From Desulfobacterales bacterium (GTDB taxonomy: Bacteria > Desulfobacterota > Desulfobacteria > Desulfobacterales > JALSRD01): 35,381 bases of DNA. This document shows, piece after piece, positions 34,711-35,381 of this stretch. The stretch spans positions 1-35,381 of the forward strand of contig JALSRD010000096.1 of the NCBI GenBank assembly GCA_026984935.1, written 5' to 3'. The translations under genes were made by a program, and so were the position numbers. Each line of letters begins with the position of its first letter. Position 1 is the stretch's first letter. Below the pieces are notes generated by a model. It was not told the DNA's origin and searched no databases. It saw nothing but the letters and a program-made list of their open reading frames with translations.

Positions 34711-35145
34711 AGACGCCCTAATCTATCACCAGAATTGCCGCATCCTCGTCCACATCTTTTCGCCGGAAACGCGCCGCTATGAAAGGCGCATCAGCTGCGC
34801 CCCCGGCGGCGTTACCCCGGTTCATGTTCATCCCGGGGCCTGACAGACGATGGATATCCTTTGCCGCGTCAGGCGGGAAGGCATCACCGCATCGATATAA
34901 CTTCCGGAAAAATTACGGCCGCGCCGTCTATAGCAGGGTGCCCGGGATGAGAACTTACAAACCGGATCCATTCAGTCCCCCTCCCGGACCGCCTCCGGCG
35001 GCCCTGCCCGCAGCTTGACCCGGCCGCCGCCGGCCATTTCGGTTTTAAACTTTTTTTTGAACCTTTTTGACTGGCCGGGGTACTATACATCAGAAACTTG
35101 CTTATCGAGGGAAACCCGCAGCACGTTGAGACAGGGAGGAAAACC
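34711..35145. other. gene-poor stretch
   Basis: About 430 bases with no convincing gene. It holds several small GC palindromes (for example GGCC-N6-GGCC near 35022-35035) and AT-rich T-tracts (35040-35070) that may end transcription. The AT-rich part leads into the small exported peptide gene. Confidence 0.35.
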
Positions 35146-35310
35146 ATGAAGAAGACGGCCATGCTTGTGATCTCTTGGGTTATCATGTCACTGCTGACCG
35201 CCGGCCTCGGCATTTCTGCAAGCACCAAGCCTTCGCGTGTGAGAAAGGGCAAACAGGCGCCCGGCTGGTGCTTTAACCCTACAACGAAACCTATAAATAA
35301 TAAAACTTGA
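35146..35310 (+). CDS. small exported peptide, possibly truncated
   Basis: 54 residues; GGGAGGA lies six bases before the ATG at 35146. A signal peptide covers about 1-25 (MKKTAMLVISWVIMSLLTAG, cleavage near ISA). The remaining 29 residues are basic and contain one Cys. No family is recognised. The last codons are AT-rich, unlike the start, and the stop lies inside the -35 box of the next promoter. This suggests that the original gene was longer and was cut by an inserted element whose edge lies near 35285-35305. Confidence 0.5.
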   Translation: MKKTAMLVISWVIMSLLTAGLGISASTKPSRVRKGKQAPGWCFNPTTKPINNKT

Positions 35311-35335
35311 CTTGTAACACATGATCTGCTAGATT
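35307..35335 (+). promoter_or_regulatory. promoter of the gene at the right edge
   Basis: TTGACT (35307-35312), 17 bases, TAGATT (35330-35335). Transcription would begin about 35342, giving a leader of about 23 bases that contains AAAGGAGG. Confidence 0.55.
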
Positions 35336-35371
35336 ACGAAACTAAAACCGAAAGGAGGCAGATCATGTTAC
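35314..35371. repeat. long imperfect inverted repeat over promoter, ribosome site and start codon
   Basis: The left arm GTAACACATGATCTGC (35314-35329) and the right arm GCAGATCATGTTAC (35358-35371) are exact complements over all 14 right-arm bases, except for an extra AC in the left arm. The left arm lies in the promoter spacer. The right arm contains the start codon and begins at the last base of the AAAGGAGG. Only read-through RNA would contain both arms. Confidence 0.75.
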
Positions 35372-35381
35372 CGGAGATTCG
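35365..35381 (+). CDS. start of a gene cut by the window edge, possibly a transposase
   Basis: AAAGGAGG, six bases, then ATG and five further codon starts (MLPEI and a partial codon). Too short to identify. The surrounding inverted repeat resembles that of insertion sequences, where it blocks transposase synthesis from outside transcripts. A transposase is therefore suggested, not shown. Confidence 0.45.

Follow-up and report, generated by a model that had tools for sequence, protein, structure and literature searches.

The 35,381-nucleotide stretch of DNA analysed here (the window) ends inside an insertion sequence (IS) of the IS701 type, and we propose, with a probability of roughly 0.85, that the transposase gene of this element is guarded against read-through transcription in the manner of IS10; all of the evidence is computational. 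An mRNA made from the element's own promoter would start near position 35342 and lack the left arm of an inverted repeat, so that its Shine-Dalgarno (SD) site and ATG would be open and the message translatable. A polymerase arriving from outside, in this case from the small gene whose 3' end the IS entered, would copy both arms, and the resulting read-through RNA would fold into a hairpin of 11-12 bp, the 3' strand of which would hold the end of the SD site and the AUG. With the hairpin lying over these signals, ribosomes would be unable to start, and landing in a transcribed gene would not by itself switch the element on. We infer that the hairpin would also lower translation in the cell.

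The Window Ends in the Left End of an IS701-Type Element

The window is the complete contig C96 of a 3.9-Mb genome in 112 contigs. Its terminal part (35273-35371) has a 99% match at the extreme end of C87, another contig of this genome; within the IS portion, the C87 copy is 100% identical across the first 95 bp, which is all that is available there. The element is thus repeated in the genome. Both contigs end within the repeat and their flanks are unrelated, a pattern typical of an IS with several copies that the assembler could not cross. The two copies are located at TTAA and TTAT. All features of the window described here lie on the forward (+) strand. As delimited by the repeated copy and by alignment with relatives, the left end of the IS spans 35277-35381, where it is truncated by the end of the contig. 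Hence, the earlier note was right to suspect an element edge, but the edge lies at 35277 and not near 35285. The outermost terminal inverted repeat, CCCTACAACG (35277-35286), agrees with the left ends of complete relatives, in which CGTTGTAGGG forms the right-end counterpart; a complete element aligned in a related genome (G035) possesses the left end CCCTACAACG, a 429-aa transposase starting with MLPE, and the right end CGTTGTAGGG.

Judged by homology to the relatives' N-terminus (MLPE..) and by its SD/ATG context, the transposase gene begins with the open reading frame at 35365 (35365-35381) and runs past the contig after MLPEI R. Complete relatives encode IS701-family transposases of ~429 aa, two of which score 350 and 339 bits on the NCBIfam IS701 model NF033540 (cut-off 150 bits), and a PF13546 match is also present in relatives. 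On IS4 models, the relatives' transposases reach 16-43 bits against cut-offs of 115-250. By homology, then, the window element, of whose own protein 5-6 residues are visible, most probably belongs with the IS701 family and not with IS4. The 4-bp target duplication expected of the IS701 family is YTAR-like; among the relative copies with both ends visible, 37 of 65 are bordered by identical 4-bp flanks, mostly NTAN. The checks proposed in the earlier note, namely the identity of the protein, terminal repeats and a target duplication, could be answered from complete relatives (IS701, often with 4-bp duplications), while the rest of the window's own element is unassembled: a transposase search of its genome gave nothing, and the genome's contig ends yielded no right end. 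That the downstream gene is an ordinary host gene, with the repeat missing in relatives, is excluded for this element. A search for an empty insertion site in a same-genus genome gave no match, and viral contigs contained no close relative. Desulfofustis sp. PB-SRB1 (L040-L049, L090) carries, within one genome, many near-identical full copies of one such IS with clean 4-bp duplications; that element has been active recently and would serve well as a model.

The Inverted Repeat Spans the Predicted Promoter Spacer and the Start Codon

A repeat search of the window revealed a perfect inverted repeat with arms 28 nt apart. The left arm, ACATGATCTGC (35319-35329), lies wholly within the spacer of a predicted sigma-70-type promoter (promoter scan; 35307-35335), which consists of a -35 box TTGACT (35307-35312), a 17-nt spacer and a -10 box TAGATT (35330-35335) extended by a TG at 35327-35328; the position of the predicted -10 is kept among relatives. 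Since the arm occupies the 3' part of this spacer, RNA from the element's own promoter, with a +1 predicted near 35342, would not contain it. The right arm, GCAGATCATGT (35358-35368), begins at the final G of the SD site GGAGG (35354-35358, read from the sequence) and extends through the start codon, the ATG at 35365-35367. The arrangement described in the earlier note was confirmed: the left arm precedes the predicted +1, the right one overlaps the end of the SD site and the start codon, and 11/11 positions are complementary. Both window arms contain GATC, a Dam site, which recalls the Dam control in IS10 and IS50; the GATC is not retained in most relatives.

Upstream of the IS, a small host open reading frame (35146-35310) runs in the same direction and has been disrupted by the insertion, which follows 35276. 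The stop that it acquired, TGA at 35308-35310, falls within the -35 box, as had been noticed previously, and the frame has no homologue among 57 related genomes. A genome motif search places a putative ECF-sigma-type promoter, TTTGAACCTTTT-N11-GGTACT, at 35056-35084. This motif has only two copies in the genome, and since the other (C110:4316-4344, L003) stands directly before an ECF sigma-factor gene, the small frame may be ECF-driven and be the member gene of a tiny ECF regulon that the IS has struck. Its putative promoter may thus be a candidate source of RNA running straight into the IS; the terminator scan found no terminator-like site between this promoter or the small frame and the element.

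Predicted Folds Distinguish Read-Through From Native RNA

The predicted fold of RNA beginning at the IS edge (35277) has an energy of -19.5 kcal/mol, and none of 200 shuffled sequences was equally stable (z -3.2), as compared with just -3.7 kcal/mol (z +0.75) for RNA beginning at 35342. When the RNA begins at 35146 and includes the upstream frame, the hairpin is still predicted to form. Hence, for the two start points that the earlier note had singled out, 35146 and 35342, the hairpin is present in the longer RNA and the shorter one contains a weak fold only. Opening the window's SD site and AUG is predicted to cost 14.8 kcal/mol in the read-through RNA versus 3.4 kcal/mol in the native one. 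An Rfam search with this region gave no match. A hairpin confined to read-through RNA could also act as an attenuator or terminator, or as an RNase target, such that the RNA would be removed rather than its start codon hidden. Terminators at the 5' end that act against incoming transcription do exist in some IS, according to PMC2965389, but here the hairpin is not followed by a U-run, nothing was detected at this place by the terminator scan, and the right arm lies on the SD/AUG in most elements instead of anywhere in the leader; we therefore consider removal of the RNA very improbable.

Arm Complementarity Is Maintained Across 51 Elements

Concealment of the start codon in read-through RNA makes predictions for related elements. 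We examined these predictions by comparing 5' ends in a non-redundant set of 51 elements, one of them the window's, which searches at the order, phylum and whole-collection level had drawn from Desulfobacterota and further phyla. As a group, the 51 elements show the three predicted features, i.e., complementarity of the arms despite sequence changes, a left arm upstream of +1 and a right arm on the SD/ATG, and together with the two fold energies this supports the earlier suggestion that the structure would arise in read-through RNA only. In a swap test, in which each promoter-region arm was paired with its own SD-ATG region or with permuted partners, own pairs had a mean duplex energy of -12.7 kcal/mol versus -10.2 kcal/mol for swapped pairs (sd 0.33), and none of 20,000 permutations was as low. 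The fixed zones of this test clipped shifted arms, which makes it conservative for the elements concerned, e.g., L005 (GCAACATAA/TTATGTTGC), L081 (AATCTGTTC/GAACAGATT) and L120 (CTGTCACC/GGTGACAG), all of which keep the rule with other arm sequences in slightly shifted places. Counted from the predicted +1, the element-specific fit appears in segments between roughly -25 and -5 (z about -4 to -5); it is stronger in ATG-anchored segments (z -6 to -7), and the native leader lacks it (z near 0 or positive). Such confinement upstream of +1 is needed if the protection is to act on read-through RNA only.

Covariation pointed the same way: both sides were changed in 55 cells versus 27.5 in shuffles, and the covariation score was 0.315 versus 0.250 (0/500 shuffles in each case). 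These shuffles ignore the relatedness of the elements, hence the weight is carried by the swap test and by a slide control, in which shifting the arms by any 1-3 nt lowered pairing from 70% to 34-41%. These data also bear on the suggestion that the repeat arose by chance, or as a by-product of two conserved motifs that happen to be complementary, the extended -10 (TCTGC) and the SD (GGCAGA). The complementarity is indeed partly common to all elements, as swapped arms still average -10.2 kcal/mol, but own arms beat swapped ones throughout the permutations and do so with double changes; moreover, the effect is local, lies upstream of +1 and is absent from ordinary genes, so that we find a chance or by-product origin scarcely credible.

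The predicted concealment of the start region was likewise seen in most of the set. The mean cost of opening the SD and AUG in the 51 elements was 12.7 kcal/mol in read-through RNA, 6.5 kcal/mol in native RNA and 8.2 kcal/mol with a shuffled upstream part; a trivial share of the gap between native and read-through RNA comes from the fact that a shorter RNA folds less, which the shuffled-upstream control handles. Occlusion by the upstream part reached p<=0.05 in 38 of the 51 elements, with 13 falling short of 0.05, as compared with 3 of 41 ordinary genes of E. coli K-12, which is about chance. In 25 of the 51 elements, versus 8.3 expected from shuffles, each of the three incoming reading frames meets a stop ahead of the left arm; the idea that these stops would prevent ribosomes from opening the hairpin is only suggestive. 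An additional small hairpin stands beside the SD site in the native leaders of some relatives (CTCTCG/CGAGAG in L076 and CTTGTT/AACAAG in L079; also L124), and these hairpins might also modulate how well the native mRNA is translated.

The strongest of the alternatives weighed here, although still an unlikely one, is that the arms work as DNA: they would be half-sites of an operator for the transposase or a host repressor, which would shut the promoter and the ends of the element. A protein bound to the left arm, within the promoter spacer, would obstruct polymerase, and the mismatch pattern is not decisive, since both kinds of mismatch, GU and AC, are rarer in own than in swapped arms, as fits an RNA hairpin and a DNA palindrome alike. 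However, the arm sequences vary freely among elements while their complementarity is maintained, and the right arm is pinned to the SD/ATG, a constraint unnecessary for a DNA operator. Moreover, the spacing between the -10 and the ATG assumes most lengths between 33 and 41 bp, i.e., most of a helical turn, so that half-sites would come to lie on different faces of the helix and their phasing would be broken.

Comparison With Known Systems

To our knowledge, read-through protection is established mainly for IS10 and IS50, the block in IS50 (Tn5) being the second classical case. For IS10 (Tn10), the fold-back mechanism that shields the element against external promoters goes back to Davis, Simons and Kleckner (1985), as cited in PMC2965389. 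The parallel with IS10 and IS50 drawn in the earlier note held only for the former in our occlusion test: IS10, used as a positive control with its known arms CACATCTTGT / ACAAGATGTG around the AUG, gave p 0.015, whereas IS50 was not detected (p 0.34), and as IS50 is a known case, the test is imperfect. As predicted for the window element, the left arm of IS10 lies upstream of the transposase transcript start and the right arm on the start codon, and the read-through RNA folds while the native RNA does not. Unlike the window element, IS10 belongs to the IS4 family, and its arm sequence is unrelated; IS50 likewise differs in its IS4 membership and its arms. IS10 also possesses an antisense RNA, RNA-OUT.

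A literature search of partial coverage, with most subscription papers outside it, found no report of translation or read-through control in IS701 elements. We lean, with limited assurance, towards the view that an IS701 group spread across several bacterial phyla evolved read-through protection independently of IS10 and IS50. In this group, one stretch would serve both as a promoter part (the extended -10 region) and as an anti-start-codon arm, upstream stops would keep invading ribosomes off the hairpin, and the covarying arms would be findable by sequence alone. Plasmid IS701 elements from Streptomyces, Rhizobium and Rhodococcus, with TAGTACT.. ends, share the IS701 transposase family with the window's group (31-36% identity), but none of the seven distant elements sampled reaches p 0.05 when tested for occlusion by the upstream part; hence, the protection may be confined to the window's group.

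In IS200 and ISPpu9, the structures lie within the transposase mRNA leader itself, unlike in the window element, the left arm of which would sit outside the native RNA. Transposase translation is limited by a leader hairpin in IS200 (Beuzon et al., 1999, cited in PMC2965389), as is transposase synthesis by a leader structure in ISPpu9 (PMC8450116), and both resemble the window element in that RNA structure over the initiation region limits, or in our case would limit, transposase translation. Some 50 elements of another transposase family conserve the arms through changes that compensate one another, which suggests that read-through protection is a common, selected strategy by which insertion sequences avoid activation by their insertion site. 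The elements compared here provide a test set and a simple signature, an arm in the promoter spacer with its partner on the SD/AUG, for scanning other IS families.
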